Shown here: positions 34,255-53,266 of the stretch, piece after piece | Position numbering within the stretch: position 1 is the first letter of the stretch | Layout: the number at the start of each line of letters is the position of its first letter | Source: Larkinella humicola | Lineage (GTDB): Bacteria; Bacteroidota; Bacteroidia; Cytophagales; Spirosomataceae | Assembly: GCF_008727875.1 (NCBI RefSeq) | Contig: NZ_VTWS01000009.1 | Coordinates: forward strand, 1-64,000 | Direction: 5' to 3' | DNA: 64,000 nucleotides | Notes under the pieces: model-generated | What the model saw: only the letters and a program-made list of their open reading frames with translations | Databases searched by the model: none | Told to the model about the DNA's origin: nothing | Made by a program: the position numbers and the translations under genes

Positions 34255-34283
34255 TTATTCCGAAAACCGGGCAAAAAGTAACA
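34255..34283 (-). promoter_or_regulatory. shared ECF-type promoter, caspase gene 1
   Basis: Minus strand: TGTTAC, 17 bp, GAATAA. The downstream hexamer ends 38 bp before the start codon at 34216. The two bases before GAATAA are CG. Confidence 0.8.
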
Positions 34284-34319
34284 GGTGCGAACGGCCGAAA
34301 TGGGTTAAGAGTAGCGGTT

Positions 34320-37300
34320 TTATTTCTTTTCCGGGCAATAGGTTCGCATCAAGTTCATAAACCCGGTGTCCGGTTTGATGGGATCAAAATCGGGATTGGT
34401 CAGAATGACGCTGGCATCGGTGCCGAAGCCTTGTTTAAAGGCTTTCTCCAAGTGGGGTAACGCTTCTTTTGTATTGCCTTGCCGGGCAAACCAGCGGGCG
34501 TAGAAATAGGGCGCTTCCCACAGGTTGACCGTGGCTATTTTTTCGAGCCGCTGCCCCCACTGCCAGGCTTCGGCATACCGGTTTTGGCGCAAGAGGGCAA
34601 CGGCCAGTGTCTGCGTAGCCCGCACGTTGATCGAGTCCATGCGCAGCACGGCCCTTGCTTCGGTTTCACCTGCGACGGCATCACCCGATCGGACCTGAGC
34701 TGTAGCTAATAAATTATGGTAATCTATATTATATGGCTTCAACCGAATGGCCTCCTGTAAAGTAGGTATTGCTTTGGCTGGTTGACCCAGATCGATATGA
34801 GCTAATCCAATTTGGAACTGATAATTGTCGTTATCACTACCTTCTGGCTTGGTGGCAATTGCTTTCGCGTACCAATGGATAATTTGATCATACTGGTTCC
34901 GATCAATAGAAATGTGACCCATAATTGCGTAAGCTATCGCCAGGCGTTCAATCACTTTATGGTCTCGTTGTGCAGCTATTGGATAAGCGGCTGTATCAAT
35001 GGCAAGCACACGGCTACACATTTCAAAAGCCAAGTCATTCTTTCTGAGCTTATTGTAGTATAACCAGGCCGCTTCAATAGGGTAAGTGGAGTTAGCGCTA
35101 TCAACGTAAGCGGCTTGGCGGTAAGCTTCGGCCGCTGGTTGATATTGGCCGACAATCTTCTGGATTTTTCCCATAAAAGCCAGTGCCTGGACATTTTTAG
35201 GATTCAACCGAATGGCCTCTGTAAAGGCGGCAAGAGCCTCTGGATATTTATTTTGTTTAGCCAGTATTCCACCTCTTAAAAACCATTGAGCATCATCTTT
35301 GGGGTTAAGTCTCTGAACCTGTTGACAAAGTGCCAAAGCTTCATCGTCATGATGCCCAACCATTACCAATGTCATAGCTAACTTTAACAGAACTTCCGGC
35401 TGATCAGGTATCAGAGCAACGGCCCGGCGATAGATACTTTCTGCTGCAATATATTTTCTATTAGAAAAATAGAGGTTACCTAGCTCTACAGATACATCAT
35501 CCCCTTCAGTACTCAGCGAGTCGGCCAGTTGAAAGCAATGCCAGGCTTGTAATGTATCGTTTAGGGCTAAATATACCCTACCCAACCTAAATTGGGAACT
35601 GGCAAAGGATGGATTGATCAACATCGCTTGTTTAGCAAAAAGCAAAGCGGCAGAATAATTCTTGTTTTCGAACTCAAGGTCATAGCGCACTAGCAATCCG
35701 ATTAGATTTCCCGGATTCAAGCGTAAACTAACTTGCGAATTTTCATCAGCCCATTGCCTGTCCATAGTTTGTTTGGTCTTTTCGTATCGTCGCAGATAAG
35801 CGAAGGCTATCATAGCATGCGAAAGGCCATCGGATGAGTTAAGTCGAAAATAACGCTCATAGGCATCAATACTTTCATTCCATCTTTGCTGTATAAAGTA
35901 GTTCAAGCCAATTTCAGCCAGTGCAAAAGCATAGGTCGAGTCCATTTTTAGCAAGTCTCGCGCTATACTGATTGCCTTGTCATGTTGACCAATCTTTCGG
36001 TATATGTCAATCTTAGCTGTTTGTATTTCATTTAGCCTTCCTTTATACTGTCTTTCATAACCTTCTATTCCTTTTTGCCGATGAAATTCAGTACGTTTTT
36101 CATCTTTTGATTCATGATAAAATTTAGCTAATCCAGCATGGCTCATGGGACTGGAAGCATCAAGTTTCAGGGCTTGTTCATAATACTTTTTGGCCTTACT
36201 AAATTGATTTCTTGTCAAATACTGTTCTCCTATTAAATTTAGTACAGCTACGCTGTTCGGCAATAATTCCAGGCATTTTTCCATATATATCATTGAGGAA
36301 TCGAGCTGCGTTAAAACAAAACTTGTCATACTCATTTCCCAATACGTATACGGCATATTCGGCTCCAATCTAGCCGATTCCCGGAAGCGATTCATAGCCA
36401 TCAGGGTCAGGCTATCGTTGAATTCGATCCGATTCCTTTTCGTGGTCAACAACCGTTTCCCTTCCAGAAATAATCGCCGGGCTGTCAGGTTCTGAATCAG
36501 GTTGTGATTATTCCCCAGCAGCACGATAGAGGTATCGATTTCAGCAATGGCGGAGTCGAGCTGGGCGATAGACGCAGGAAGTTCATATAGCCGAATCTCC
36601 TGCAACAGAGGCCGTAGCAACCCTTCCGTGCGAACTTGCAAAGCCGCCACGAGGTTTCGCGTCATCAGACCCCGCAATTTAGCGTTGTTGCGGGCGGGGA
36701 GTTGCCGCAGGTAATCCAGTGCCGACTGCCCGGCGGGGTGCAGCAGATGCCGGGCGGTGAGGGCCTGCTCAAACTGCTTATAGACCCGCTGTGTGGTCGA
36801 GTCGAGGCCCCGGAGCAGGTCGGCTTCAAAGCCCTTGGTTTGGGTGGCCGTCAGCAGGGAATAGTCGCGGGTTTTGCGCTGTTGATAAACCCGCAACGAG
36901 TCGGAATTGACGGTTCCGATGGACATATCGCCCTCGCCACCCAGCAGTTCCGGATGCTGGACGTGGGGTCGGGCGGTTTTGGGAACCGTGGTTTTCAGGT
37001 ATACCTCCAGTTCCGATTTGGTGACGATACGATCCTTGTCGCTGTCGGCCATGCCCATCAGGCCATCGACCAGGCAGTAGGAAAACAGCCCCCGGCCATT
37101 GCCGAATTCAACCCCTTCGATGGCCAGTTCACCCGGCTCACAGGACAGGATTTTGACCTGCCCCGCCCACTCCTTGCCCAGACCCAGCATCGTCCGGCTT
37201 TGGCCCACACTTCCGCCCATCAGCGCAAACGCCCCCGACCGGCAGGCATCGGCCACAAATACCACCTCGGCCCCGGCTGCGGTTAGTTCGTCGAGCCAGC

Positions 37301-37790
37301 GTTTCATCTCCCGCAGGTAGCACTTGTCAAACGTTGCGTTATAGTCCTGGCGGGAAGCTCCGTAGAGCATCAGCATGGCGTTTTCGGCACTGTCGGTTCG
37401 GGTTTCGATGTCACCGTGTCCGGCAAAATAGACATACACCCGATCACCGGTTTTCACCTTTTTTTTGACCGTTGTCAGGGCGTCGGTCAGGTTGATCAAC
37501 GTAGCCTGCCGGTTGATCAGCGTCTCGACCTGCGACGCGGGTACGCCCGCCGACCGGACGAGGTAATCGGCAAAAACGAGCGCATCCCGGTCCGCAAACC
37601 GCAGCGACGGCAGGAACTGGTAGGTCGAAATTCCCACCACCACACCGTAGGCCGTCGTGCCGACGCCAGATGCTGTCTGAGTCGTCTCGGCCTTGCCGCC
37701 CCGGTTGGTAGACGGTGGCTGGGCGAAGACGGAAGTAATTAAGAGCCAAAAAATAAAGGATTGAAGGAGCAGAGAAAGTCGGGTGAGCAT
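34320..37790 (-). CDS. exported caspase-like peptidase fused to a long TPR array
   Basis: 1156 aa with a signal peptide (TSVFAQ). The caspase-like domain (about 45-300) has YGVVVGISTYQFLP, catalytic His125 in YFAGHGD and Cys183 in VADACRSGA, then an EF-hand-like DSDKDRIVTKSELEVYL segment (about 250). Residues about 460-1140 are a run of TPR motifs (for example KKYYEQALKLDASSPMSHAG, EALAAFTEAIRLNPKNVQAL). The TPR-coding stretch (roughly 34.7-36.4 kb) is visibly more AT-rich than the peptidase-coding end. It has its own shared promoter at 37815-37843. TPRs probably bind the partner or substrate. Confidence 0.9.
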   Translation of the reverse strand: MLTRLSLLLQSFIFWLLITSVFAQPPSTNRGGKAETTQTASGVGTTAYGVVVGISTYQFLPSLRFADRDALVFADYLVRSAGVPASQVETLINRQATLINLTDALTTVKKKVKTGDRVYVYFAGHGDIETRTDSAENAMLMLYGASRQDYNATFDKCYLREMKRWLDELTAAGAEVVFVADACRSGAFALMGGSVGQSRTMLGLGKEWAGQVKILSCEPGELAIEGVEFGNGRGLFSYCLVDGLMGMADSDKDRIVTKSELEVYLKTTVPKTARPHVQHPELLGGEGDMSIGTVNSDSLRVYQQRKTRDYSLLTATQTKGFEADLLRGLDSTTQRVYKQFEQALTARHLLHPAGQSALDYLRQLPARNNAKLRGLMTRNLVAALQVRTEGLLRPLLQEIRLYELPASIAQLDSAIAEIDTSIVLLGNNHNLIQNLTARRLFLEGKRLLTTKRNRIEFNDSLTLMAMNRFRESARLEPNMPYTYWEMSMTSFVLTQLDSSMIYMEKCLELLPNSVAVLNLIGEQYLTRNQFSKAKKYYEQALKLDASSPMSHAGLAKFYHESKDEKRTEFHRQKGIEGYERQYKGRLNEIQTAKIDIYRKIGQHDKAISIARDLLKMDSTYAFALAEIGLNYFIQQRWNESIDAYERYFRLNSSDGLSHAMIAFAYLRRYEKTKQTMDRQWADENSQVSLRLNPGNLIGLLVRYDLEFENKNYSAALLFAKQAMLINPSFASSQFRLGRVYLALNDTLQAWHCFQLADSLSTEGDDVSVELGNLYFSNRKYIAAESIYRRAVALIPDQPEVLLKLAMTLVMVGHHDDEALALCQQVQRLNPKDDAQWFLRGGILAKQNKYPEALAAFTEAIRLNPKNVQALAFMGKIQKIVGQYQPAAEAYRQAAYVDSANSTYPIEAAWLYYNKLRKNDLAFEMCSRVLAIDTAAYPIAAQRDHKVIERLAIAYAIMGHISIDRNQYDQIIHWYAKAIATKPEGSDNDNYQFQIGLAHIDLGQPAKAIPTLQEAIRLKPYNIDYHNLLATAQVRSGDAVAGETEARAVLRMDSINVRATQTLAVALLRQNRYAEAWQWGQRLEKIATVNLWEAPYFYARWFARQGNTKEALPHLEKAFKQGFGTDASVILTNPDFDPIKPDTGFMNLMRTYCPEKK

Positions 37791-37814
37791 AGCGCAAATG
37801 CTGGTCTTTTTTGA

Positions 37815-37843
37815 TTATTCCGTTGGTGCTTAAGAATGTAACA
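37815..37843 (-). promoter_or_regulatory. shared ECF-type promoter, TPR-caspase gene
   Basis: Minus strand: TGTTAC, 17 bp, GAATAA, with CG before GAATAA as at caspase gene 1. The downstream hexamer ends 24 bp before the start codon. Confidence 0.82.
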
Positions 37844-37879
37844 AAACCACAAAATTGATTTTACGCTGAATCAAACGCC

Positions 37880-40800
37880 TTACTCCACCAGCACAAAAGC
37901 CGCCCACTTGAACGGTTCCTTCGGATACCGGCTCCGCATCTGGCTTTGGGCATAGTCGTAAGCTGCGGGGACAGAGCCTTTTTCGAGTAGTTGACCGTAA
38001 AAGAGGGTCATGTATTCGGCGGTTTCCTGGTCAGACACCCGCCAGAGGCTCATCAGCAGATACCGCGCTCCGGCCATCTTCACGGCCCGTTGCAGGCCAT
38101 AAACTCCCTCGCTGCCCTTCACCTGCCCCAGCCCCGTTTCGCAGGCGCTCAACACCACCAGTTCGGTGCCGCGCAGGTTCAGGTTCGACAGTTCGTAAGC
38201 GGTCAGAATGCCGTCATCGACGCCCTCGATGGGCGTCCCCCCTTTCCAGACGTAGTTGGCTCCGGCCATCACCAGCCCCGACCGCAGCAACGGATTCTCC
38301 GAAAACTGAAACCGGTTGCGTTCGTCGCTAACGAGCGCTATTCCGTCGGCTTTGGGTTTGGGCAGATCGGGAAAGAAAAAACCGTGGGTGGCAATGTGCA
38401 GGATTTTCGGCGAGTGACCCGACAACGCTTTTACACTGCCTTCCGTAGCGGTTTCTTTGGTTAGGTAAGTAGTTTGAGTAGGGGGCAGTATCCGGCGCAG
38501 GTTATCCACTTCGGCCTGGGTGCCGGGCAAATAATCCCAGGTGCCGGAGCGGGTCGCTTCGCGCAGGGCCAGTCGCTGCTGAACCTCCTTCAGACGGGTC
38601 TGCCGAACCAACCCCACACTGTCGGCATCGTAGGTAATGCCGCCGTAGAGACTGGTTTTGAGGGTATTTTTAGCCAGCGGCTGCTCGGTTTGGGCTGTAC
38701 GCAAGGCTACCACGCGGGTGCTGCCCACCTGCCGAATCCGGAAGCGGTCGGCCATGCGCTGGCTGGTGTCGGCGGGGTTGGGCAGGGCCGCCAGCGCGAT
38801 TTGGTGCAGCCGCCCGGCGGGGGAAACAAATACGGTTTTGACGCCCTGTAAGAGGGAATCGAGCGGTTGCCAGATAAGTCGCGAAAGGGCGAGTCCTTTT
38901 CCTAATTGAGCGCTACCGTTGCCGGTTTCGGCCACACCGCCCCGGTACAACCCATTGATGTCGGAAGGAGATGCGGTTCCGGCAGTGAGCAATTGATCAA
39001 ATTGTCGTTGCTCGCCCAAAAACACGAACTTGGGTTGGGTATAACCGGGTCTCAGCACCAGAGCGGCATAAAGAGTGCTGTCGGTCGGGCGTTTATGGTA
39101 ATATCGAAAGGAAACGAACTCGATGGCGACTTCATCGGGCTTGAGAGCTTGCTGAATCTGGGGCCATTCTATGCGCAAGGAAGTGAAGGCCTGGCCGTAT
39201 TCGGGCAAACGCAAAACGAGTTGCTGCTCTAAGTCGGCGGCTTTACGCTGGAGCGAATCTACGCCCTGTTGCTTGGTTAAGGGTAGTGTGAGCTGGCGGT
39301 TTAGAATTATTTTGGTACTTCTGAGTTGACTATCAATACGGATGGTTACACTGTCTTTGGTTTGAGTGAGGAGAGTATTCAGTAATTGAGAAGCCATTAG
39401 GCCCATGCCTTTGCTAAGTAGGGCGTCGTTATAATTTTGTCCGAGTAGAACCGTATTCTTTTTAGGTGATTCAAATCCGAGGGAGTAAACCGCTTCTGAA
39501 AAATCAAGTTTTTCTTGAAACTGAACCAATCCTGACTCATTGAGCATATATACGTTTTGAAGAAGCTGAACTTTATATCGCTGCTGTGCTTCTAAAATCA
39601 TTGGGATCGCTAGCTCATATTGTTCCATTGATTTATATACCAATGCCAAACGAAGGAGCGAACTAATGTAAGTTGGATGAGCCCTATCTACTGCTTTTTC
39701 AAGAATATTTTTCGACTCTTCAAAATTTATTCTTGCTTTTTCAAATTCACCTAACATAACATACGAAGTACCTATAATTCTCAATGTCTCAGCGTAGAGC
39801 GGATGGCCCTTACCCACCACTTTTACAATAATAGGAAGGGCCTCTTTCAATACAGGCACTGTTTCTTCGTAATAACCATAGGCTTGAAATAACATAACAA
39901 ATTTTATCAGCGCTAATGTGTACTGAAAACTATTGGACAGATCGGGTATGTTTTTTGCGAGTGTGCGAAAATCCTCAAAAAGATGCAACGATTCATCATC
40001 TTGCCCCATGTATCCTTGCAGTAAGCCCAAATCTGCTAGCACCATAGCATAGTCAGGATGTAATTTACTTAACGCTCTTTCCCTAATCGTTAAACATTCC
40101 TTTAAAATTGGAATAGCTTTTTCATTCTGACCGATGATTTGATAAAAATCAGCCAAATTAAACAGCACATCAGCATACCTATTATTTAATTTCCCTAATG
40201 AGTTTTCAACAATAGATAAGGATTCCAGATAAAATGGCAAAACTTTCTCATATTGCCCCATCTCTACGTGCATCTTCGCCAAATTAAACAGCGAAACTGC
40301 ATAGTTGATATGATTTTGCCCAAGTTTACTTTTAATAATTATCCGGGCATTTTCGTAGAGATCTGTTGCTTTTTCAAATTGATACGTCTTGACATAAATG
40401 CCGGCCAGATTACCCATTGCACTAGCCAAAACAAGGCTGTCTTTTCCCGCTACGCGCTTCACAATAGCCAGAGATTCTTCTGCTAATCCGATCCCTTTCT
40501 TATAATTATCCAGGTTAACGTTTATTACAGCTACTAAATTCAGGGTAGTGGCATAGTCAATATGCTCCTTGCCAAAATTTTTATATCTGATTTCTAACGC
40601 TTCCGTCGCGAACGTCAGCGCTTCTTGATATTGACCCATACTCCGGGCGAGCGCAGCTATATTTGTCAGGATCATCGCGTAATTCGGATGAAGTTTTCCC
40701 GACAGTTGCTCCTGAATTTTCAGAGACTCTTTATACAATGGCAAAGCTTTGTTAAACTGTCCGGTTTGCTCATACGATAAAGCGAGGTTATTTAGATCAG

Positions 40801-41464
40801 CGGCATAGTCAGCATTCATCTTACCAACTGTTCTAAGACGGACATCCAGAATTTTCTCAGCGACGGGTACTGCGCTCAAGAAGAGACGCCTGTTTACTAA
40901 AGTGGTTAATTGCGAGGTTAGCGTATCCAAATCCACGCGTCGTCCCTTTTCAAACCAGAATTTATGATTTACACCATCTTTATTCCAAACTTGTGCCAGC
41001 CCTTCCATTAACCCATTTTTATAGGAAATAACTGAACTCGGACCACCACTGGGATACCAGGTGTAGGTAGTGTCTTGTTCTTTCTTCAAGTAAATAGTTG
41101 AAAGTCTGCTCCGGTTTCCATTCGGATAATACCAGATACAAATCCCCTCCATTATTTCCTCTGGGATTATTTGAACCATTTTCCCTTCCCACTGCTTTGA
41201 ACCAGAACGGTAAAAATCACGGGTTATACCGATGGGCTTGCCCGCTTTGTTAAAAGAAATTAGACGATAATAAGCGATACTGTCCGGCAGAGCTGTTTCT
41301 TTCCAGGTTTTCGTATAAGTAATAACCCAATTACCTACACGTTGTCCAGCAGCATTACGCAAATTTGGAGCAGATGGAATGGGCGGGTCAATCTGAGCCT
41401 GCACCAGCAGCGGTAGCAACAAAAAAAGAAGTCCGAATCGACCTGACAGAGAAAGTGTTGGCAT
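37880..41464 (-). CDS. exported MORN-like/TPR/CHAT peptidase
   Basis: 1194 aa with a signal peptide (PLLVQAQ). Residues about 85-175 have MORN/YwqK-like repeats (GICIWYYPNGNRSRLSTIY, GGPSSVISYKNGLMEGLAQVW by their starts). Residues about 185-640 are kinesin-light-chain-type TPRs of 42 residues (YAADLNNLALSYEQTGQFNK). A CHAT domain fills about 850-1194, with catalytic His1027 in HIATHGFFFP and Cys1108 in VLSACETGLGQ. CHAT proteases are separase/caspase relatives. The TPR-coding DNA (about 39.3-41.3 kb) is AT-rich. The shared promoter lies 20 bp upstream. A protein-binding protease is the safest reading. Confidence 0.9.
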   Translation of the reverse strand: MPTLSLSGRFGLLFLLLPLLVQAQIDPPIPSAPNLRNAAGQRVGNWVITYTKTWKETALPDSIAYYRLISFNKAGKPIGITRDFYRSGSKQWEGKMVQIIPEEIMEGICIWYYPNGNRSRLSTIYLKKEQDTTYTWYPSGGPSSVISYKNGLMEGLAQVWNKDGVNHKFWFEKGRRVDLDTLTSQLTTLVNRRLFLSAVPVAEKILDVRLRTVGKMNADYAADLNNLALSYEQTGQFNKALPLYKESLKIQEQLSGKLHPNYAMILTNIAALARSMGQYQEALTFATEALEIRYKNFGKEHIDYATTLNLVAVINVNLDNYKKGIGLAEESLAIVKRVAGKDSLVLASAMGNLAGIYVKTYQFEKATDLYENARIIIKSKLGQNHINYAVSLFNLAKMHVEMGQYEKVLPFYLESLSIVENSLGKLNNRYADVLFNLADFYQIIGQNEKAIPILKECLTIRERALSKLHPDYAMVLADLGLLQGYMGQDDESLHLFEDFRTLAKNIPDLSNSFQYTLALIKFVMLFQAYGYYEETVPVLKEALPIIVKVVGKGHPLYAETLRIIGTSYVMLGEFEKARINFEESKNILEKAVDRAHPTYISSLLRLALVYKSMEQYELAIPMILEAQQRYKVQLLQNVYMLNESGLVQFQEKLDFSEAVYSLGFESPKKNTVLLGQNYNDALLSKGMGLMASQLLNTLLTQTKDSVTIRIDSQLRSTKIILNRQLTLPLTKQQGVDSLQRKAADLEQQLVLRLPEYGQAFTSLRIEWPQIQQALKPDEVAIEFVSFRYYHKRPTDSTLYAALVLRPGYTQPKFVFLGEQRQFDQLLTAGTASPSDINGLYRGGVAETGNGSAQLGKGLALSRLIWQPLDSLLQGVKTVFVSPAGRLHQIALAALPNPADTSQRMADRFRIRQVGSTRVVALRTAQTEQPLAKNTLKTSLYGGITYDADSVGLVRQTRLKEVQQRLALREATRSGTWDYLPGTQAEVDNLRRILPPTQTTYLTKETATEGSVKALSGHSPKILHIATHGFFFPDLPKPKADGIALVSDERNRFQFSENPLLRSGLVMAGANYVWKGGTPIEGVDDGILTAYELSNLNLRGTELVVLSACETGLGQVKGSEGVYGLQRAVKMAGARYLLMSLWRVSDQETAEYMTLFYGQLLEKGSVPAAYDYAQSQMRSRYPKEPFKWAAFVLVE

Positions 41465-41483: not shown

Positions 41484-41512
41484 ATATTCGCTAATTCGGT
41501 GAAATAGTAACA
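41484..41512 (-). promoter_or_regulatory. shared ECF-type promoter, CHAT gene 1
   Basis: Minus strand: TGTTAC, 17 bp, GAATAT. The downstream hexamer ends 19 bp before the start codon. It sits in the 64-bp gap to the divergent CHAT gene. Confidence 0.75.
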
Positions 41513-44315: not shown

Positions 44316-45007
44316 GGTGCCAGTTTTTTCCAGCGAATTTGCCACCAGACCTTCCAGCGATCGGTTCGATTGATGGGATACACCGGCTCCCCCGACTGGT
44401 CGAGCAACTGAAACGTCGCATCGGCATTGTCGGGCTGGTTGTTGAGAAGATACGCGTTCAGCAGGTGCCACTGCACCGCCTGCCGGAAATACGGCCGCAG
44501 GCTGTCAGCCCGCGACAGCGTCTCCAGCGAGGGAATGGCCATTTCGGGTTGCCCATTGGCCAGAAACGCCTGCGCATCGAAAAAGTCGCGGTAAAACGCC
44601 CGCTGCCGGGGGGTCAGGTCGGTCTCCTGCAAATCGTCGCCCGACGCCCGGTAGCGTTGGGTTAGCGTCACGTCGTCGCGGTAGCTTTGCAGATCAACCC
44701 GGTCGAAAGTCAGGTACGCCAGTCCCAACCCGATCAAAACCATTCCGCTCACCACGACCCGCCCCAGGCGCCACCGGCGGAGTGGCTGGCGGTGCGCCAA
44801 TTCGTGCCGGACGGTTTTCCGAACGGTATGTTCCAAACTTAAGATCCTCAGGGCCTCATCGGCGGTTTGCAGCCGGAGAGCGGTTTCCCGGAAGTCGGCA
44901 TCGCGGGCCAGTTCCTGTTCAAAAACCAGCCGCTCGGCATCCGGTAATTTGTTCTGGTAGTAGGCTTCGATCCATTCCCATTGTTGTACTTGATCGGTTG
45001 GTCGCAT
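44312..45007 (-). CDS. putative membrane anti-sigma factor
   Basis: 231 aa. An N-terminal helical cytoplasmic part (WIEAYYQNKLPDAERLVFEQELARD by its start; about 1-88) has the look of anti-sigma domains without a zinc motif. One membrane helix (VVVSGMVLIGLGLAYLTF, about 83-100) follows, then a helical TPR-like periplasmic domain (about 125-210: RAFYRDFFDAQAFLANGQPE). It lies 97 bp downstream of the ECF sigma gene on the same strand, so the pair is probably an operon. The periplasmic part could sense the state of the exported proteases. The role is inferred from position and layout. Confidence 0.68.
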   Translation of the reverse strand: MRPTDQVQQWEWIEAYYQNKLPDAERLVFEQELARDADFRETALRLQTADEALRILSLEHTVRKTVRHELAHRQPLRRWRLGRVVVSGMVLIGLGLAYLTFDRVDLQSYRDDVTLTQRYRASGDDLQETDLTPRQRAFYRDFFDAQAFLANGQPEMAIPSLETLSRADSLRPYFRQAVQWHLLNAYLLNNQPDNADATFQLLDQSGEPVYPINRTDRWKVWWQIRWKKLAP

Positions 45008-45104: not shown

Positions 45105-45659
45105 TCACTCAGCCCGACCGTTTTTTTTGCGCAGGATTTCACCCAGTCGCAGCATACAGCGGTATTTCCGCACTTTAGCCGCTTCCATCGTGATCTCCAG
45201 CAGGCGGGCAATCTCTTCCATGGAATAGCCCTCCCAGTAAAACAGTTTGAGTAGTCGCTGGCAGGCCTGACCCAGCCGCGCCAGAGCCTCTTCCAGATCC
45301 GGGAGCCGACGGTCTTCGGTGAATGCGTCGCTGGTCCGGTTTTCATCAAGATCGCCGGGTACGACCACCGACCGTCTTTGCAGCGTTCTCAGCCATTTAT
45401 TCCGCACAATGGTCGTCGCATACGCATCCAGCGCTACATCGGGCCGAACCTGATAGCTGCCCGACCGGACCTGCTGCCAAACAGCCAGCACCGTATCCTG
45501 CACCACATCATCAACATCCGAACGGGTTCCGCTGTTGCCCAGCACCATGCGCCGGGCAATCACGTTGACCCGCCGGGTTAGCAGGCGGATCGCACCGGCC
45601 AGTCGGCGCGGGTCGTCTGAGCAGAGGTCTTCGTAGAGCTTTTGGTCCTGGCTGGTCAT
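45105..45659 (-). CDS. ECF RNA polymerase sigma factor, probable regulator of the caspase/CHAT genes
   Basis: 184 aa. Region 2 covers about 25-95 (DVDDVVQDTVLAVWQQV, TTIVRNKWLRTLQRR) and region 4 about 125-175 (ACQRLLKLFYWEGYSMEEIARLLEITMEAAKVRKYRC, quoted by its ends ACQRLLKLFY and MEAAKVRKYRC). Its own promoter (45686-45714) has the TGTTAC-N17-GAATAG signal found before the caspase, CHAT and M48 genes, which suggests positive autoregulation. The anti-sigma-like gene follows on the same strand. This is the most likely factor recognising the shared promoters, but the sigma-like gene at 46115 is an alternative. Confidence 0.9.
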   Translation of the reverse strand: MTSQDQKLYEDLCSDDPRRLAGAIRLLTRRVNVIARRMVLGNSGTRSDVDDVVQDTVLAVWQQVRSGSYQVRPDVALDAYATTIVRNKWLRTLQRRSVVVPGDLDENRTSDAFTEDRRLPDLEEALARLGQACQRLLKLFYWEGYSMEEIARLLEITMEAAKVRKYRCMLRLGEILRKKNGRAE

Positions 45660-45685: not shown

Positions 45686-45714
45686 CTATTCCGCGATAGC
45701 CGAGGAATGTAACA
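45686..45714 (-). promoter_or_regulatory. shared ECF-type promoter, sigma-factor gene (autoregulation)
   Basis: Minus strand: TGTTAC, 17 bp, GAATAG, with CG before GAATAG. The downstream hexamer ends 26 bp before the start codon at 45659. Confidence 0.82.
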
Positions 45715-45849
45715 TTTTTTTCAGGCGGGTTGTGATTTTTTTTTCGAAGCCGGGCATACACCCTCGAAACCCTGCTTCGAAAGCTTTTAGCGGACGTCCC
45801 GGAGCCGGTTTTCACCAACCAATAAACGACCCGTAAAAGGGTATCGGCT

Positions 45850-46038
45850 ATGCAAAAAAAGACCAAAGCTTCGGCTATGGGCTGGATGGGCATGTGCGGA
45901 TTGGTGGTGATGCTGGCGATGAGTGCCTGCGAATCGGTGGCGGTTGAACCCGCTCCGGCCGAAACGCAGCCCACTGTCCGCGTGACTTCCGCCGACGAAG
46001 ACCCACCAGACCGACCTGGCAAGCCGCCCGGGCGGTAA
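45850..46038 (+). CDS. small putative lipoprotein
   Basis: 62 aa. A basic start (MQKKTKAS) leads to a hydrophobic stretch and a lipobox-like LAMSAC (Cys at about residue 27), then an acidic, Pro-rich tail of about 35 residues. A strong terminator directly after the stop supports it as a real expressed unit. No function is recognised. It lies between the two sigma/anti-sigma pairs, in front of the second one. Confidence 0.6.
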   Translation: MQKKTKASAMGWMGMCGLVVMLAMSACESVAVEPAPAETQPTVRVTSADEDPPDRPGKPPGR

Positions 46039-46043: not shown

Positions 46044-46085
46044 AGCCGCCACATTACGGGAGTGTAATGTGGTGGCTTTTTCTTT
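46044..46085 (+). terminator. terminator after the small lipoprotein gene
   Basis: AGCCGCCACATTAC (46044-46057) pairs with GTAATGTGGTGGCT (46064-46077), with one G-U pair, and is followed by TTTTTCTTT. Confidence 0.9.
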
Positions 46086-46114: not shown

Positions 46115-47086
46115 ATGGCTGCCCCCCCGCGCACTCCCGACGACCTCCCGCTGTATCTATCACAGATCGAACCCGTTATTGCTCAGACCCTGGCGACTGA
46201 CTTTGCCCATTTGCCGGAAACAGCTATCGACCTGATTACGGGCAAGACGCTTGAGACGGCGCTCCACATCCGGCGCGTGGCCACCAAACAGCGGCTGCAC
46301 CAGGCCGCTTTTGCGCAGCGGCTGACCCGGGAGCAGGCGCAGGTCTGGCTGGCCGTACACGGTACATCCCGAAAGCAGGCGGAAGCCATGAACCAGATCA
46401 TGGCCGAAAATCAGGCCACCGTCCAGCGGTTTTTAGGGGCCTACACCTTTCGGACCACCGACCAGCAACAAGAGGTTCTGAACGACAGTTTCAGGGTGTT
46501 TTTTGAAATGATCGCCAACCAAAAACCGGTGGTGGCCCTCATCTCAACCGTCGTGAAGGGAATTGCCCGCTATAAGGCCCTAAAACAATTGGGCATCAAT
46601 CGAAAAGATTCGTGGCAATGGCTCGAAACAACCTATGAATCGGATGGAGACGACGACATCGGAACCTTCGACTACCCCGTCCCACCCGATGACAGTCAGG
46701 AACCAGACAGTGTCGATCTTCACCTGCGGTTCGAAGAGGTTGTCCGGGAAAATACAACACCAGGTCGACCCGATGAGGAAAGACCCCTCCTCAAACGAAT
46801 TGACTATGCCGAACTCCAGCGCTCCATTGCTGATTGTTTCAAGAAGTTACAGGACCGACGGCAATTGTTGCTTCGGCTCAAATACGCATTCTGGAAAGGC
46901 TATGACAAAGGGCCGCTAAGCGACGAACAGATAGACAGCAGTTTCGACAAACTAAGCATGGAACAAATCGCCGAACTGGCAGGCTACAAGGATTCCCGAA
47001 TGGCTACCTCAAGACTATATGAGACCCGGCAAAAGATTTATGATTGCCTGAAAAGCAAACTTAACATTACCCCTTCAGCCCAATGA
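46115..47086 (+). CDS. divergent sigma-70-like regulator
   Basis: 323 aa, longer than normal ECF factors. The N-terminal 90 residues are helical and unlike region 2. About 95-190 (ERFLGAYTFRTTDQQQEVLND-like helical segment, IARYKALKQLGINRKDSWQWL by its start) may be a degenerate region 2. The C-terminus (about 245-315: LQDRRQLLLRLKYAFWKGYD, MEQIAELAGYKDSRMATSRL) looks like region 4 with its helix-turn-helix. It overlaps the next gene by 4 bp (ATGA), which encodes a membrane protein of anti-sigma layout. I infer a second sigma/anti-sigma pair, but the region 2 assignment is weak. Confidence 0.6.
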   Translation: MAAPPRTPDDLPLYLSQIEPVIAQTLATDFAHLPETAIDLITGKTLETALHIRRVATKQRLHQAAFAQRLTREQAQVWLAVHGTSRKQAEAMNQIMAENQATVQRFLGAYTFRTTDQQQEVLNDSFRVFFEMIANQKPVVALISTVVKGIARYKALKQLGINRKDSWQWLETTYESDGDDDIGTFDYPVPPDDSQEPDSVDLHLRFEEVVRENTTPGRPDEERPLLKRIDYAELQRSIADCFKKLQDRRQLLLRLKYAFWKGYDKGPLSDEQIDSSFDKLSMEQIAELAGYKDSRMATSRLYETRQKIYDCLKSKLNITPSAQ

Positions 47087-47715
47087 TTACGGACGAAAAT
47101 AAATGGACCTTTATCGAGGCATTCCTGGCCGGAAAACTTGATGCGTCGGCGCAAGCCCTGGTCCGGCAGAAGATGGACGAGGACCCGGTTTTTCGAACCG
47201 ATGTGCTGATTCAACAGGCGCTTAACCGCGAAATCGAAGCGCAGAAACAGGCCGAAGACCGCGAAATCGTAGCGCAGTTCATGGCGAACCGGCCGAAGCG
47301 AGGCATCGTGAAGCCGCTGCCGGTACCGATTTGGCGACAAACCTGGTTCCGGGCCGCAGCCGTCCTCGTTCTGGTGGTGGGCTTAGGCTGGCTGGCCTAC
47401 AACAACCGCGCTCCGGAAATGCTGGCGGTTGAAATTCCATATGACCAACGAGACTTTGGGATGGCAACTGACAGCTCAGTTAACCGAACGACTTTTTCGG
47501 TTGAATTCAACAGCCGGGGGCCGTCGGGGGGCGAATACAGCAGCGGTGAAGGCCGTATCCAGCTTTTCCTGCCTGAGCTGCCTGCCGATGCAAAACAATG
47601 GATTCTGAGCGATCGGCGTGAGGGCGACTATTTGCTCAGAACGCCCCAGGGAAAATCCTACCAGCTTGATAAACAAACCTCTGGCGAACGAAAACCGCTT
47701 TCACCGATTAATTAG
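47083..47715 (+). CDS. putative membrane anti-sigma factor of the second pair
   Basis: 210 aa. A helical N-terminal part (FIEAFLAGKLDASAQALVRQ, about 1-85, with the same 'IEAxLxGKL' opening as many Bacteroidota anti-sigma proteins) is followed by one membrane helix (AAAVLVLVVGLGWLAY, about 103-119) and a small extracytoplasmic domain of about 85 residues. Translation is coupled to the sigma-like gene. Its end overlaps the end of the convergent M48 gene by 8 bp. The role is inferred from layout and position. Confidence 0.65.
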   Translation: MITDENKWTFIEAFLAGKLDASAQALVRQKMDEDPVFRTDVLIQQALNREIEAQKQAEDREIVAQFMANRPKRGIVKPLPVPIWRQTWFRAAAVLVLVVGLGWLAYNNRAPEMLAVEIPYDQRDFGMATDSSVNRTTFSVEFNSRGPSGGEYSSGEGRIQLFLPELPADAKQWILSDRREGDYLLRTPQGKSYQLDKQTSGERKPLSPIN

Positions 47716-49300
47716 TTTCGGCCGCCACCCAGCCCGCCAGCCGACTGTCGCGGTATTCCAGAAAAAGCCACCGTTTGGCACTCCGAAATCCGTAGAAAAC
47801 CGTGTTCCGGGCACCGGCGATAACGGTCGCCGGTGCCCCATACCGTTTTAGCTGACTGGCCGGACTACCGATGGCGAATCCTTTCAGTGCCAGTCGGCTG
47901 CTTTTCAAGACCCGGTGCATCCGCACTGTCGGCGACGAATTCCTGGTTGGCTCGTCGGCAATCGGCAGCAAGTAGCTGGTCAGCGAGTCGGTTCGGGCGA
48001 TCCGGGCGGCCTTTGAAACGCCGGGGAGTTGTTCCATCGGCGGAAGTTTGGGCAAATTCTTCGGATCTGGCCAGGCCGGAATGGGCGTCTGTTTCTCCGA
48101 TTTTGCATCCCGGTCCCGAACGAAGCCGTCCAGCCACTGTTTCCAGCCGGGTTGCAGACCTTTTTCAAAATACGACAGATTTTCGGCTGCCCGAAAAGCC
48201 CCCTGTGTTACCGCCAGCTTGAACGACTTCCTGGCTTCGTCAGTCTGACCGAGGTCGGCCTGAACGATGCCCAACATCAGATGGGCATTGGCCGACAGCG
48301 GTTTCTGCAAATTGGCCAGCGTTTGCCGGGCCTCGCCGGAATTGTTGAGCAGATACTCCGCAATGGACAGGTTGAGCCCGGCCGTCTGGTGCGTGGGTTG
48401 TTCCGACAAAGCGATTCGGAAAAGGGTCCGGGCTTCGGTCAACAGTTGCCGAAACGGCAATGAGCGATCGCGTCGCAGCACGGTCAGCAGCCGGTTATCG
48501 CTATCGAATTCGACCGGAAATTTAAACCGCAGCCGGGGATTTTCCGTTTCTAGAGGCATCAGGGCCAGCGCCTGATTGAGTTTGATTGCTCCCAGATTGT
48601 TGCGCGTTGCAGCACTCGGATACCGTTTGATTAACCCGACAAAAGCATTGCTGGCGGATTCATAATCGCGCAAAAGGTAACTGATTTCGCCGACCTCGAA
48701 CAGTTGCGCCAGTTCCCGTACCCGGTCGGTGGTGTCGGCCACCATTTTTAAGCGTTGCTGCTTGCTGAGATACCCCGTCAATTGACCGGGTACGAAAGCG
48801 TCGTAAAACCGGGTATAGACTTCCGGGGCCAGTGAAAAAGCATCGTAGCCCGACAGATAAGCCATAAATACCCCCGAACGATCGGCGAGGGCTTCCTGAT
48901 TTTCGAACGAATTGGGGTTGCTGTTTGGCACTTCCAACGGCGAAAAGAATTCCTTTTTACTGCCGTGCCGATACTGAAAATGACCCAGTTCATGCCCCAG
49001 CAAACAGGCCAGTGCCGCATCGGCATCGGCACCAAAGCCCCCGCAGAGCGACAGCACATCGTCACCCAGTTCGATTCGGGTCGGATTGTCGGGTCGGTAT
49101 CTCAACCGGCCTTCGACACCGGTTTGTCGCCGTGGCAGAAGCTTCAGCACGGGCGCATCGGGCGGATTGCCAATGGTCCGGAGCAGCCGGGCATAAACGC
49201 GGTGCATCAAAACCGTTTGATCGACCGGTTTTTTCGGGGGTGATACGGGAAAAAGCAGGCTAACTGCCAGTACAAAGTGCATGAAAAAGGGCTGGCCCAT
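47708..49300 (-). CDS. exported M48-like zinc metallopeptidase with TPR region
   Basis: 530 aa with a signal peptide (residues 1-20, VLAVSLLFPVS). The zinc motif HELGH (103-107, in CLLGHELGHFQYRHG) and the downstream EALADRSG (about 133-140, third ligand Glu) fit M48-type peptidases. Helical TPR-like repeats span about 200-370, and a small C-terminal domain with LFLEYRDSRLAGWV ends the protein. This is the Oma1/BepA-like plan, in which a periplasmic zinc protease carries TPRs for envelope quality control. The gene has the shared promoter (49340-49368), interleaved with that of the divergent WD40-caspase gene. Confidence 0.85.
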   Translation of the reverse strand: MGQPFFMHFVLAVSLLFPVSPPKKPVDQTVLMHRVYARLLRTIGNPPDAPVLKLLPRRQTGVEGRLRYRPDNPTRIELGDDVLSLCGGFGADADAALACLLGHELGHFQYRHGSKKEFFSPLEVPNSNPNSFENQEALADRSGVFMAYLSGYDAFSLAPEVYTRFYDAFVPGQLTGYLSKQQRLKMVADTTDRVRELAQLFEVGEISYLLRDYESASNAFVGLIKRYPSAATRNNLGAIKLNQALALMPLETENPRLRFKFPVEFDSDNRLLTVLRRDRSLPFRQLLTEARTLFRIALSEQPTHQTAGLNLSIAEYLLNNSGEARQTLANLQKPLSANAHLMLGIVQADLGQTDEARKSFKLAVTQGAFRAAENLSYFEKGLQPGWKQWLDGFVRDRDAKSEKQTPIPAWPDPKNLPKLPPMEQLPGVSKAARIARTDSLTSYLLPIADEPTRNSSPTVRMHRVLKSSRLALKGFAIGSPASQLKRYGAPATVIAGARNTVFYGFRSAKRWLFLEYRDSRLAGWVAAETN

Positions 49301-49327
49301 GTGAAAACGGTTTTTTTTCGGCGAACC

Positions 49328-49356
49328 TGTTACATTTCTTTATTCCGCAAGAATAA
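49328..49356 (+). promoter_or_regulatory. shared ECF-type promoter, WD40-caspase gene
   Basis: Plus strand: TGTTAC, 17 bp, GAATAA. It overlaps the minus-strand promoter at 49340-49368, so both cannot be occupied at once. The start codon lies 182 bp downstream, giving a long leader with a strong hairpin. Confidence 0.8.
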
Positions 49357-49368
49357 CCAAATGTAACA
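49340..49368 (-). promoter_or_regulatory. shared ECF-type promoter, M48 peptidase gene
   Basis: Minus strand: TGTTAC, 17 bp, GAATAA, preceded by CG. The downstream hexamer ends 39 bp before the start codon at 49300. A TACATTTG string inside it also fits TAnnTTTG, so sigma-70 use is not excluded. Confidence 0.8.
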
Positions 49369-49412
49369 CCCGCCACACCACGGTTTTCCGATTTTATCCA
49401 TATCCATTGAAA

Positions 49413-49449: not shown

Positions 49450-49537
49450 GATCGATTGGCAGAATTCAATTCATTTTTATCTTGTAGCGTATTTCCACCC
49501 AACGGACGCCCAACCTGAATCTTACCAACTAAGCACT

Positions 49538-52500
49538 ATGAAACGCCTGATTCTGCTCATTCTGTTTTTATATCTTGTGCTGGCTCCGCTCATCACGTAC
49601 AGCCAAAAACCGGAGCTAGTGGTGCCGGTTGGGCATACGGATAATTCTATTTCACATGCCTTTTCACCGGATGGAAGGTATGTACTGACTGGATCAATGG
49701 ACAACACCATGAAGCTGTGGGAGGTTAGCAGCGGAAAGCTACTGCATAATTTTGAAGGACATTTAAATCCGGTATCATCCATTGCTTTCTCTCCCGATGG
49801 TCGCTTTGCTCTTTCCGGATCAATGGACAACACCATGAAGTTGTGGGAGGTTAGCAGCGGCCGATTGGTGCACAATTTTTATACCCACTCAAATGGCGTT
49901 TTTTTTAACGTTTCCTCCATTGCTTTTTCCCCCGATGGGCGATATGCCCTGTCCGGATCATGGGATAATACGATGGAACTGTGGGAGGTCAAAAGCGGCC
50001 GATTCCTGCATATATTTAAGGGTCATACTCAAGAGATAAATATAGTAGCTTTTTCGCCCGATGGGCGATATGCATTGTCTGGATCAAGCGACCGGACTTT
50101 GAAGCTATGGGATGTGAGCAGTGGAAATATCATTCGTAATTTTGAAGGCCATTCAGATAAAGTTACTTCAATGGCTTTCTCAACCGACGGTCGTTTTGTT
50201 GTATCCGGATCAGGTGACAAAACCCTCAAAATCTGGGACATTGATACAGGCAAACCAATTCACACTTTTTATGGACATACGGATGATGTAACTTATGTTG
50301 CTTTCTCACCCGATGGTCGCCATATACTGTCTGCATCAGCAGAGAATTTATTTTTATGGGAAGTGAACAGTGGGAAGTTACTACACACTAACATAAAATA
50401 TGCGGGTTTGGCAACCTCCAGGATTCTTTGGCCGGATGTCCACTATGACTCGTCTTCATTCTACAGAAATTTAAAATCTTGGCAAATCAACAGTGAACGG
50501 TTATACCGCAGTTTTCAGGGCAATTCGAAGAAAATTGAATTCGTGGCTTTCTCCCCTGATGGTCGCCATATCTTGGCCGGATCAGGGAAGGAGGATGATA
50601 ATCTGAAGATTTGGGAGGTGAACAGTGGACGACTAATTCGTAGTTTCGGGAGCAATTCAAGCGAGATTCAGTCCATCGCGATCTCCCCCGATAGTCGCTT
50701 TGCTCTGACCGGATTACGGGACAGTACTTTCAAAATCTGGGACATTAATACGGGTAAACCGATTCACACTTTTACTGGACATACAGGTAGAGTTAGATCC
50801 GTAAATTTCTCCCCTAATGGTCGTTATGCCCTGTCCGGATCATGGGATAATACGATGAAGCTGTGGGACATTAATACGGGTAAACCAATTCACACTTTTA
50901 AAGGTCATAAGGATGGGGTTAATTCTGTAGCTTTCTCCCCCAATGGTCGCCATGTCTTGTCCGGATCAGGTCACGACTCCTTAAAGCTTTGGGATGTGAG
51001 CAGTGGCCAGTTAATTCGCAGTTTTGAGCAAACCCAAATCTCTTTAAGTCAGACACCAATAGCATTCTCCCCCGATGGTCGCCATATACTGTCTTCATCA
51101 CATGGTGGACGTCTAAAGCTATGGGATGTAAATAGTGGCCAGTTAATTCGTAGTTTTGAGGGCCATTCTAACAAAATTAGCTCGGTTGCTTTCTCCCCCA
51201 ATAGTCACTATGCCTTATCGGGATCAAATGATAAAACTCTCAAAATGTGGGAAGTTAACACCGGCAAACCGATTCACACTTTTAGTCATTCAGGGATTGT
51301 AACAACTGTTTGCTTTTCACCCGACGGTCGTTTTATTCTGTCTGGATCATGGGACAAAACGCTCAAAATCTGGAACGTAGTCACAGGCAAAGAAATCGCT
51401 ACCCTCATCGCTGTCGACTCCACCGATTGGGTTGTCACAACCCCTGCCGGGCTGTTCGATGCCTCGCCGGGAGCCATGGACCTCATGCACTACGTGGTCA
51501 ACGACTACACGGACCAGAATGAACCCTGGAAAGTGATTGAACTCAATCAACTCAAACAACGCTACTACCAACCGGGTTTACTGCCTATTTTGATGGGTTT
51601 TAGTCAAGAACCGCTCCGTCAGGTGCCCGCATTTGAGAATGTTAATCTACCACCCAGCATCCAGCTTTCTCTGAAAGGCGAAGCTCTTACGGTCAAACTC
51701 ATAAACCGCAGGGGTGGTATTGGCCGGATTGCCGTCTTTATCAACGGAGCCGAGGTGGTTGACGATTTACGCGCCAATCCGCAGCGTGATGTCAACCAGA
51801 ATGTCCTCACGCTCACCCTGCCGCTGACCCGGTTTGCCAATCGATTCGATATGCTGAACACCATCCGGGTGGTGGCCGCCAACGGAGCAAACTGGCTCAA
51901 CAGCCGCCCCGCCGAAATCAGGTACCGGACTGGTGGTACGACAAGGGGAGGCATAGCCGAAAAGCCATCATCGCCGGGCGTTCGCAAAACCGCGCGGCTG
52001 CGGGCCGTGGTGGTCGGCACGTCCAACGTCGGACTGCACTTTGCCCATACCGATGCCGAGCAGATTGCGAATGGTCTGCAACTGGCCGCCACCGAACTGC
52101 TCGGCCCGACGAATGTAAGCGTGCAACGGCTCGTTACCAAGCCGGGCGCACCACCCCAGTCCACCAAAGCCGACATTGTAAAAGCGTTGGAAGCCGCCCA
52201 GAAAACCCGGCCGGAGGATCTGTTTGTACTACACCTGTCGGGCCATGCCATCAACTACGGCGGGCAGGATGGCGATTTGTATTACCTCACCGCCGGGGCC
52301 ACCTCGGCCGACGCCAGTTACCTCACCGATCCCGCTATCCGACAGACCTACGCCCTGTCGAGTCAGGAGCTGACCCAGTTTCTCAACCTAATCCCGGCCC
52401 GGAAGAAGCTCCTGATTCTGGATGTGTGCGCGGCTGGAAAAGGCGCAGAGAAGCTGCTCGTCGCGGCCCGTGACATTCCCGCCAGCCAGATCCGGGCACT

Positions 52501-53158
52501 GGATCGACTCCAGGAGCGAACCGGTTTTTACGTGCTGGCCGGTTCGGCGGCTGATGCCGTCAGCTACGAAGCCAGCGTGTATGGGCAGGGGTTACTCACC
52601 TACGCCCTCCTGAAAGGCTTGCGGGGTGCGGCCCTGCGCCGGGAAGGTTCCGAGGAGTTCGTGGACGTAGAAAAGTGGCTGGGCTACGCCGTGGAGCAGG
52701 TTCCGCTGCTGGCCAAAGGCATTGGTGGTATCCAGCAGCCGTTCTACCGGGGAATTCAGAACCAGCGCAGTTTCGATGTGGGGCGGGTGACGGAGGAGGT
52801 GAAAGCTAAAATCCGGATATCCGAACCCAAACCGGTACTGCTGGTCAGAAGCTTTCAGGAAGAAACGCAGTTTGACGACGTGCTGGATTTGAAGAACAAG
52901 GTCGAAAATGCCCTGAACGACCTGATCGCCACGCGGGGCGCCGACGCGCCGGTGCTCACGATGGAGGCCAAAGACTATCCGGGAGCTTACACCCTGAGCG
53001 GTCGCTACACGCTGCGGGGCGAGGAGATTTCGGTGTCGTGTAAAGTATTTAGGGCCACCGTTGCGGTGGGCGAATTTGTGGTAACGGGGACAAAAAGCAA
53101 GCTACCCGAGCTGGCGCAGTCGGTGCTGACCCGGGCGCAGGCCCTGGTGAAACCGTGA
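49538..53158 (+). CDS. exported WD40-repeat/caspase-like peptidase
   Basis: 1206 aa with a signal peptide (APLITYSQ). About 13-14 WD40 repeats (about 25-620) share the core AFSPDGRxxLSGSxDxTLKLWDVxSG. Some are almost identical in DNA, so they expanded recently. After a linker beta domain (about 690-800) comes a caspase-like domain (about 820-1070: VVVGTSNVG, His903 in LHLSGHAINYGG, Cys964 in ILDVCAAGKG). A C-terminal domain (about 1095-1206) resembles TolB-N/CsgG-type folds, weakly. The WD40-coding part is AT-rich, the peptidase part GC-rich. The propeller probably acts as sensor or substrate receptor for the protease. Confidence 0.9.
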   Translation: MKRLILLILFLYLVLAPLITYSQKPELVVPVGHTDNSISHAFSPDGRYVLTGSMDNTMKLWEVSSGKLLHNFEGHLNPVSSIAFSPDGRFALSGSMDNTMKLWEVSSGRLVHNFYTHSNGVFFNVSSIAFSPDGRYALSGSWDNTMELWEVKSGRFLHIFKGHTQEINIVAFSPDGRYALSGSSDRTLKLWDVSSGNIIRNFEGHSDKVTSMAFSTDGRFVVSGSGDKTLKIWDIDTGKPIHTFYGHTDDVTYVAFSPDGRHILSASAENLFLWEVNSGKLLHTNIKYAGLATSRILWPDVHYDSSSFYRNLKSWQINSERLYRSFQGNSKKIEFVAFSPDGRHILAGSGKEDDNLKIWEVNSGRLIRSFGSNSSEIQSIAISPDSRFALTGLRDSTFKIWDINTGKPIHTFTGHTGRVRSVNFSPNGRYALSGSWDNTMKLWDINTGKPIHTFKGHKDGVNSVAFSPNGRHVLSGSGHDSLKLWDVSSGQLIRSFEQTQISLSQTPIAFSPDGRHILSSSHGGRLKLWDVNSGQLIRSFEGHSNKISSVAFSPNSHYALSGSNDKTLKMWEVNTGKPIHTFSHSGIVTTVCFSPDGRFILSGSWDKTLKIWNVVTGKEIATLIAVDSTDWVVTTPAGLFDASPGAMDLMHYVVNDYTDQNEPWKVIELNQLKQRYYQPGLLPILMGFSQEPLRQVPAFENVNLPPSIQLSLKGEALTVKLINRRGGIGRIAVFINGAEVVDDLRANPQRDVNQNVLTLTLPLTRFANRFDMLNTIRVVAANGANWLNSRPAEIRYRTGGTTRGGIAEKPSSPGVRKTARLRAVVVGTSNVGLHFAHTDAEQIANGLQLAATELLGPTNVSVQRLVTKPGAPPQSTKADIVKALEAAQKTRPEDLFVLHLSGHAINYGGQDGDLYYLTAGATSADASYLTDPAIRQTYALSSQELTQFLNLIPARKKLLILDVCAAGKGAEKLLVAARDIPASQIRALDRLQERTGFYVLAGSAADAVSYEASVYGQGLLTYALLKGLRGAALRREGSEEFVDVEKWLGYAVEQVPLLAKGIGGIQQPFYRGIQNQRSFDVGRVTEEVKAKIRISEPKPVLLVRSFQEETQFDDVLDLKNKVENALNDLIATRGADAPVLTMEAKDYPGAYTLSGRYTLRGEEISVSCKVFRATVAVGEFVVTGTKSKLPELAQSVLTRAQALVKP

Positions 53159-53163
53159 GGAGT

Positions 53164-53179
53164 CCCGGGCTTTCCCGGG
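53164..53179 (+). other. short palindrome after the WD40-caspase gene
   Basis: CCCGGG at 53164-53169 and 53174-53179 with a 4-nt spacer lies just after the stop codon. There is no T tract, so its role as a terminator is doubtful. Confidence 0.35.
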
Positions 53180-53237
53180 TTAACTGGCGGGCGTGACGTG
53201 TAGGCAAAAAAAGGTTGTAAAATTTTTCCGGACGGGT

Positions 53238-53266
53238 TGTTACATTTTACCCCCCCTCCTGAATAA
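53238..53266 (+). promoter_or_regulatory. shared ECF-type promoter, beta-sandwich operon
   Basis: Plus strand: TGTTAC, 17 bp, GAATAA. The downstream hexamer ends 33 bp before the start codon at 53300. It probably drives the genes from 53300 to about 56682. Confidence 0.82.

Follow-up and report, generated by a model that had tools for sequence, protein, structure and literature searches.

A recurrent TGTTAC-N17-GAATA signal in a caspase and CHAT protease gene cluster of Larkinella humicola: a probable promoter of a dedicated ECF sigma factor

In the CASP (Craspase) system, the TPR-CHAT protease Csx29 cuts Csx30, the inhibitor of the extracytoplasmic function (ECF) sigma factor CASP-sigma (PMC10028731). 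In Thermoanaerobacter tengcongensis, the ECF factor Tt-RpoE1 reads the −35 element tGTTAC, as found for tGTTAC-N16-CGTC by binding and in vitro transcription (PMC3397946), and the EACC2-caspase neighbourhoods include ECF sigma and DUF1822 TPR genes, with no promoter motif described in the available part of that report (PMC8195603). Here, we analyse a stretch of 64,000 nucleotides from Larkinella humicola (contig NZ_VTWS01000009.1, positions 1 to 64,000; hereafter the window), in which the signal TGTTAC-N17-GAATA precedes genes of a caspase and CHAT protease cluster, an ECF sigma gene among them. The signal is rare and conserved, it stands before the sigma gene, and the neighbourhood of that gene is conserved as well. 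To our knowledge, few regulators and few functions have been described for the caspase homologues that bacteria export; tying the whole caspase set to one switch, inducible by one sigma factor, would make their function testable.

We propose, with a probability of about 0.8, a joint explanation in which TGTTAC-N17-GAATA would be the −35/−10 promoter of a dedicated ECF sigma factor (45105-45659), a membrane anti-sigma protein would hold this factor, and an exported CHAT protease would free it. The sigma factor would activate its own gene and the eight other sites of the genome, most of which would drive genes for exported proteins of the caspase-like, CHAT and M48-like kinds. Its inhibitor is most likely the membrane anti-sigma protein whose gene follows directly (44312-45007), and the exported, probably membrane-anchored TPR-CHAT protein (41529-44315; with the sigma and anti-sigma genes, the triad) is the best candidate for the sensor of an envelope signal. 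It would cut the anti-sigma protein outside the membrane, freeing the sigma factor and switching on the effectors. From the sequence, we infer that the sigma factor reads the signal, that the anti-sigma protein binds the sigma factor and that the system has a role in defence or self-recognition. The cutting of the anti-sigma protein is suggested by analogy, because in CASP a TPR-CHAT protease cuts an ECF inhibitor. This gene neighbourhood suggests that a membrane signalling pathway independent of CRISPR may follow the same logic as CASP.

As with Tt-RpoE1 (PMC3397946), which activates its own gene and has a cognate anti-sigma gene, the −35 element is TGTTAC. Most of the nine genomic sites read TGTTAC-N16-[G/C]GAATA, so their −10 element starts in the same register as that of Tt-RpoE1, where the spacing is N16. 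However, the −10 element is CGTC there and GNATA here, and the available part of that report mentions no caspase-like genes. The window shares with CASP a TPR-CHAT protein, a sigma inhibitor and an ECF sigma factor in one locus, with sigma motifs within that same locus (PMC10028731). Conversely, CASP is RNA-guided and tied to Cas7-11, whereas the CHAT protein here looks exported and the inhibitor candidate has a membrane segment. A single-sequence phmmer search of the triad CHAT protein against the PDB, made without a profile search, returned 16 matches that are, by name, designed or consensus repeat proteins, with no Craspase chain; by this comparison, the protein is not a close relative of the solved Craspase chain.

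A sigma factor held by a membrane anti-sigma protein and freed by proteolysis also recalls RseA and RsiW, although the first cut is made there by DegS and other proteases (PMC10028731). In the open-licence PMC literature, no CHAT protease making the first cut in an anti-sigma protein was found among the matches listed. Within the same phylum, SM6 of Flavobacterium psychrophilum is likewise an ECF-type promoter with a sigma/anti-sigma pair among its genes, but its −10 element has CGT and its regulon includes components of the type IX secretion system (PMC9723704). The EACC2-caspase neighbourhoods are similar in that caspase genes with variable partner domains lie near an ECF sigma gene (PMC8195603); EACC2, DUF1822 and TRADD-N were not among the matches listed in Pfam and NCBIfam scans of the window proteins. 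An autoregulated ECF regulon with a cognate anti-sigma protein is an already known kind of system. The same literature gave, among the matches listed, no description of this regulon, of its promoter or of a CHAT protease beside a membrane anti-sigma protein.

The signal in the window, the genome and close relatives

The window contains seven exact matches to TGTTAC-N17-GAATA, against a mean expectation of 0.01, and this number was reached in none of 100 shuffles. With two further sites on the same contig, the signals are as follows.

34256-34283, minus strand: promoter signal of the caspase gene 32153-34216 (exact match, conservation)
37816-37843, minus strand: promoter signal of the caspase-TPR gene 34320-37790 (exact match, conservation)
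41485-41512, minus strand: promoter signal of the TPR-CHAT gene 37880-41464 (exact match, conservation)
45687-45714, minus strand: promoter signal of the ECF sigma gene, pointing to autoregulation (at most one mismatch in 8 of 8 genomes)
49341-49368, minus strand: promoter signal of the M48-like TPR gene, overlapping the plus-strand signal as an inverted repeat
49328-49355, plus strand: promoter signal directed at the WD40-caspase gene 49538-53158, which starts 182 bp further on
53238-53265, plus strand: promoter signal of the PPC/beta-sandwich operon (exact match, conservation)
contig 159170-159197, minus strand: distal signal before an apparent two-gene lipoprotein unit
contig 163319-163346, minus strand: distal signal before a WD40-caspase open reading frame (ORF) of 1287 residues

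The original prediction had placed all seven window sites correctly, with intervals one base too long at the −10 end. Its constant spacing of 17 bp holds at every one of them. The distance from the end of the −10 element to the start codon is 39, 25, 20, 27, 40 and 34 bp, in agreement with the range of 19-40 bp claimed for six of the seven, and it is 182 bp for the WD40-caspase gene. As also predicted, the signal differs from TAnnTTTG, the Bacteroidota vegetative promoter, which is absent from the −7 place at all nine sites; one TAnnTTTG match overlaps the −35 element and spacer of the M48 site. TGTTAC-N17-GAATA is very probably a promoter. The fixed spacing and strong conservation would also suit an operator bound by a DNA-binding regulator other than a sigma factor, and the divergent pair at 49328-49368 does form an inverted repeat. 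We consider this very unlikely, however, since one site taken alone forms no palindrome and no direct repeat, the window sites always point at a gene and lie 20-40 bp before six of seven starts with a spacing of 16-17 bp, and no vegetative box occupies the right place, while the first box is a demonstrated ECF −35 element (PMC3397946).

A genome-wide scan, proposed with the original prediction, found nine exact N17 sites in the 7.86-Mb Larkinella assembly (20 contigs), all on the window's contig (C20) and all beside the same kind of gene. One exact N16 match, on contig C13, is without support. When at most one mismatch is allowed, 77 matches occur in the genome and the reversed pattern gives 81; when at most two are allowed, the window has 17 against 9.3 expected. 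The signal therefore resides in the exact matches, and without context only these can be trusted. A motif relaxed by one or two mismatches, which yields background or little above it, was rejected as a search pattern.

Some 110 kb away, the two distal sites serve another WD40-caspase locus. This locus (L015/L016, 157758-163346 of the contig) consists of a double promoter, a WD40-caspase gene, a signal and the lipoprotein unit. No gene lies close on the plus side of the distal double promoter. This gene-less plus arm is broken, in the −10 element in the window's genome (G000) and in the −35 element in the sister strain L. punicea (G006), and the gene-serving arm is intact in both. The distal WD40-caspase has an orthologue in G249 (76% identical) whose gene is part of the main cluster and immediately follows the other WD40-caspase gene; the distal gene of the window's genome carries its own signals. 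The two WD40-caspase loci share a layout of double promoter, WD40-caspase gene, signal and next unit, as would be expected if the sites were copies left by duplication of genes with their upstream DNA and had no shared function. The present data oppose this idea, which we regard as scarcely credible: over the nine sites, the columns outside the boxes stay below 0.8 bits (except the A/T-rich columns 7-10 and columns 19, 33, 35 and 36), the flanks have changed while the boxes stayed, and the gene-less promoter arm has decayed.

The sigma gene is present in 4 of the 9 genus genomes and in 8 of the 222 family genomes, own genome included; these eight form the close set. In all eight, the signal stands before the sigma gene with at most one mismatch, as an exact N17 match in six and as CGTTAC-N16-GAATA in two. 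In the six N17 genomes, it also precedes orthologues of several further genes; in the two with N16, it was found at the sigma gene and the M48 double promoter only. The alignment of orthologous upstream regions, likewise proposed earlier, shows the boxes conserved above their flanks, with identity at 95 of 99 positions in the motif, compared with 350 of 603 in spacer and flanks (G000 against G003, G249 and G267; Fisher 3.1e-16), a count over nine pairs that is anchored on the motif and so favours it, treats positions as independent and excludes the M48 site of G003. That site keeps TGTTAC with GTATC as the −10 element, and including it manually brings the count to 104 of 110. Those five members of the genus that lack the sigma gene have 2, 0, 4, 1 and 1 exact sites (reversed pattern 4, 1, 0, 1 and 3), and at least one exact site occurs in 121 of 149 relatives' genomes, where reversed patterns are similarly few. 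Such counts are uninformative alone; only position before orthologues is informative.

In L. knui (G005, locus L107) and G249 (locus L133), an extra lipoprotein-like gene of about 240-260 residues lies between the double promoter and the WD40-caspase gene, a gap of only 182 bp in the window.

The sigma factor as reader of the signal

Two sigma-like genes lie in the window.

45105-45659, minus strand: ECF sigma factor, 184 residues, the likely signal reader (Pfam, TIGR02937)
45850-46038, plus strand: small lipoprotein-like ORF between both sigma genes, 62 residues
46115-47086, plus strand: second, diverged sigma-like protein, the rival reader, 323 residues
47083-47715, plus strand: second anti-sigma-like protein, 210 residues (weak match)

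The first of them matches Pfam Sigma70_r2 with 39.3 bits (cut-off 24), Sigma70_r4_2 with 31.2 bits (25.7) and TIGR02937 with 68.3 bits (42.9). It has region 2 and region 4, and its own promoter carries the regulon motif, as in the ECF (group IV) class. This protein is most likely the reader of the signal. A scan of named genomes gave, besides L. punicea and L. knui, 13 other loci with 24-38% identity, which were taken as other ECF factors.

The 14 best of 24 looser relatives of the anti-sigma candidate were examined, drawn from 390 genomes of a larger order. In 13 of these 14 distant loci, the sigma gene next to it shows 25-31% identity; the sigma gene of G028 was placed by alignment only. TGTTAC-N17-G[CT]ATA in G279, G254, G025 and G050 and TGTAAC-N16-GAATA in G029 lie 21-29 bp before the sigma start, and the scores of these five signals were reached by 2 of 258 other upstream regions. 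In G190, G209 and G074, TTTTAC-N17-G[CT]ATT lies 24-30 bp before the sigma gene and was recognised by position; six distant loci are without any assigned signal. The pattern of each lineage occurs two to three times in each of seven loci (G074 was left out), against means of 0-0.08 in 60 shuffles, and this count was reached by none of the shuffles in six loci and by one of 60 in G209; since the patterns were picked after viewing the loci, one site per locus is circular. Loci L192 (G029), L181 (G190) and L184 (G209) show their own signal variant before other genes; in G190 and G209, one of these encodes a signal-peptide-bearing protein of 245-251 residues.

By alignment, we take R167 of the 45105 sigma factor to be the probable counterpart of R176 of E. 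coli sigma-E. At the position of R167, the 13 loci with G in the −35 element have Arg, and the three loci with T have His, His and Asn (16 rows, the six rows without an assigned signal being left out). In sigma-E, R176 reads the −35 G (PMC3397946). The recognition-helix residue of the sigma factor thus changes together with the −35 element, a strong hint that points to the 45105 sigma factor.

It is possible, albeit unlikely, that the signal is instead read by the second sigma-like protein, the 45105 gene being merely one target in a cascade. The second gene occurs in the same 8 of 222 genomes and adjoins an anti-sigma-like gene of its own, and its profile finds the ECF sigma factors of distant loci (best E 4.9e-9). 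However, no signal copy precedes it, whereas many ECF factors regulate themselves (PMC10028731). Among the 14 distant loci, the profile detects no separate relative, although four of them have a diverged ORF of 383-409 residues in the corresponding position that could be a relative it missed. The putative recognition helix in G000 is unlike that of the seven others, yet both boxes are intact at the nine sites in G000 and G006, and the −35 change accompanies a change in the first sigma factor, of the 45105 type. The region concerned (46985-47030) looks as if a short patch had been replaced. An AlphaFold2 model of the second protein from a three-row alignment has a mean confidence (pLDDT) of 37, too low for a fold search.

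Genome-wide specificity, conservation in relatives before the sigma gene and the same other genes, the lack of TAnnTTTG at the right place and the covariation of −35 element and sigma factor support the original prediction of an autoregulated ECF regulon of exported caspase-fold proteases at the level of sequence. The two distal sites, the rival sigma-like gene, the cross-genus triad and the hypervariable repeats described below are additional to it.

Upstream of the sigma promoter, just ahead of the lipoprotein-like ORF 45850-46038, lies a strongly conserved non-coding block (45755-45815). At gathering thresholds, Rfam gave no match anywhere in the window, this block included. A terminator-like hairpin followed by a T run (46045-46085), kept in several relatives, separates the small ORF from the second sigma-like gene.

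The sigma, anti-sigma and CHAT genes

The partners of the sigma gene in the triad are as follows.

41529-44315, plus strand: TPR-CHAT protease of the triad, 928 residues, with a signal-peptide-like start and a C-terminal hydrophobic stretch
44312-45007, minus strand: anti-sigma candidate, 231 residues, with one hydrophobic segment

The three genes adjoin in 8 of 8 close loci and in 13 of 14 distant ones, where no ORF of at least 90 residues (the lower limit of the distant-locus ORF tables) lies between them; over a range of 20 kb, G013 is the exception. In nine of the 13, the CHAT and anti-sigma genes are convergent, and in G279, G254, G025 and G050 the CHAT gene lies on the other side, beside the sigma gene and 412-741 bp away. 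Because the position of the CHAT gene differs in this way, the link between the three is not that of one frozen operon.

The CHAT domain scores 184.4 bits in Pfam, and its His and Cys are kept in all 21 homologues. On the Kyte-Doolittle scale, the C-terminal hydrophobic stretch reaches at least 1.6 in 14 of the 21; values for the remaining seven are 1.2-1.5. Each of the 22 anti-sigma candidates has one hydrophobic region and no more (mean of 1.6 or above over 19 residues), with a strongest window of 1.70 or above. With its gene beside the sigma gene, its short N-terminal part and its one membrane segment, the candidate has the features of a membrane anti-sigma protein.

Several observations weigh against the proposed regulon and its release mechanism. 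At the promoters, the search of the two N16 genomes gave no signal ahead of their caspase gene, and the −10 element of the M48 promoter has drifted in G249 and G003. Among the distant loci, 9 of 14 have no strong match before the sigma gene, the TTTTAC-type signals are weak by matrix (rank 0.12 in G190 and G074, with another place preferred in G209), and several extra signal copies have no clear gene start close behind them. The change from Arg to His or Asn was noticed post hoc, and because the tree allows one or two events, the covariation is a hint and not proof. Co-occurrence cannot separate the two sigma candidates, since both are found in exactly the same eight genomes. In the window, no signal copy points at the triad CHAT gene, and the C-terminal stretch of its product is weak (1.33). 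The anti-sigma candidate reaches 19.4 bits with NF052375 against a cut-off of 100, so that the call rests on this weak match together with context, and its AlphaFold2 model from a three-row alignment (mean pLDDT 49) is unusable.

Effector genes and their variable repeats

The genes behind the remaining window signals encode the following putative effectors and operon.

32153-34216, minus strand: caspase (C14) protein, 687 residues, with a signal-peptide-like start
34320-37790, minus strand: caspase-TPR protein, 1156 residues, TPR part hypervariable
37880-41464, minus strand: TPR-CHAT protein, 1194 residues, TPR part hypervariable
47708-49300, minus strand: M48-like (HELGH) TPR protein, 530 residues
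49538-53158, plus strand: WD40-caspase protein, 1206 residues, WD40 part hypervariable
53300-54007, plus strand: first gene of the PPC/beta-sandwich operon
54039-55172, plus strand: PPC-domain protein, starting at an internal ATG of ORF 53880-55172
55194-55952, plus strand: next gene of the apparent PPC operon, without a Pfam or NCBIfam match
55984-56682, plus strand: last gene of the apparent PPC operon, without a Pfam or NCBIfam match

Three caspases, a CHAT protein, an M48 protein, a beta-sandwich operon and an ECF sigma factor had been named before, and all were recovered, the M48 match (17.1 bits) lying below the Pfam cut-off of 20.3. The three caspases match Pfam C14 with E values of 1.8e-15 and, on fragments, 2.7e-8 and 1.1e-10. 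With NF047832 (EACC1-associated caspases), they score 53.6, 45.9 and 16.1 bits, below the cut-off of 140. Single PADLOC models, applied to 10 proteins without calling systems, match caspase in two, TPR in two and HEAT-ARM in one. Export of the effectors is predicted from visual inspection of their N-termini, which resemble signal peptides.

In a comparison of the window with L. punicea (G006), the median identity is 96% over 31 aligned ORFs, which were delimited mechanically (at least 200 residues) and some of which are probably not genes. Five fall below 80%, among them TPR-CHAT 37880 (48.7%), WD40-caspase 49538 (68.9%) and caspase-TPR 34320 (70.5%); the other two are 5837-9154 (25.1%), which looks non-orthologous, and 15618-16247 (79.3%), probably no gene. 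In the three effectors, the divergence lies mainly in the repeats, with 31.1% identity in 37880 (residues 1-700), 50.1% in 49538 (35-620) and 48.7% in 34320 (401-1000), against 99.5% and 96.0% in the caspase domains of 34320 and 49538 and 81.1% in the CHAT domain of 37880. Ordinary in this respect are the domain of caspase 32153 (97.2%) and the triad CHAT domain (99.6%). In their repeat parts, G000 and G006 differ from each other roughly as much as G000 differs from another genus.

A near-constant protease joined to variable repeats under a stress-type sigma factor suggests recognition of a changing target, which may be phages, rivals or kin markers. The pairing of almost invariant caspase domains with hypervariable repeats also resembles the variable recognition proteins of immunity or kin recognition. 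Recombination or replacement without selection could also account for the variation. More tentatively, the exported, membrane-anchored CHAT protein might be a signal-dependent first-cut protease of an ECF anti-sigma protein, the freed sigma factor then turning on exported caspases with diversifying TPR and WD40 parts against phages, rivals or non-kin outside the cytoplasm. We hold these two steps together to be rather doubtful; if true, they would amount to a new kind of extracytoplasmic recognition system.

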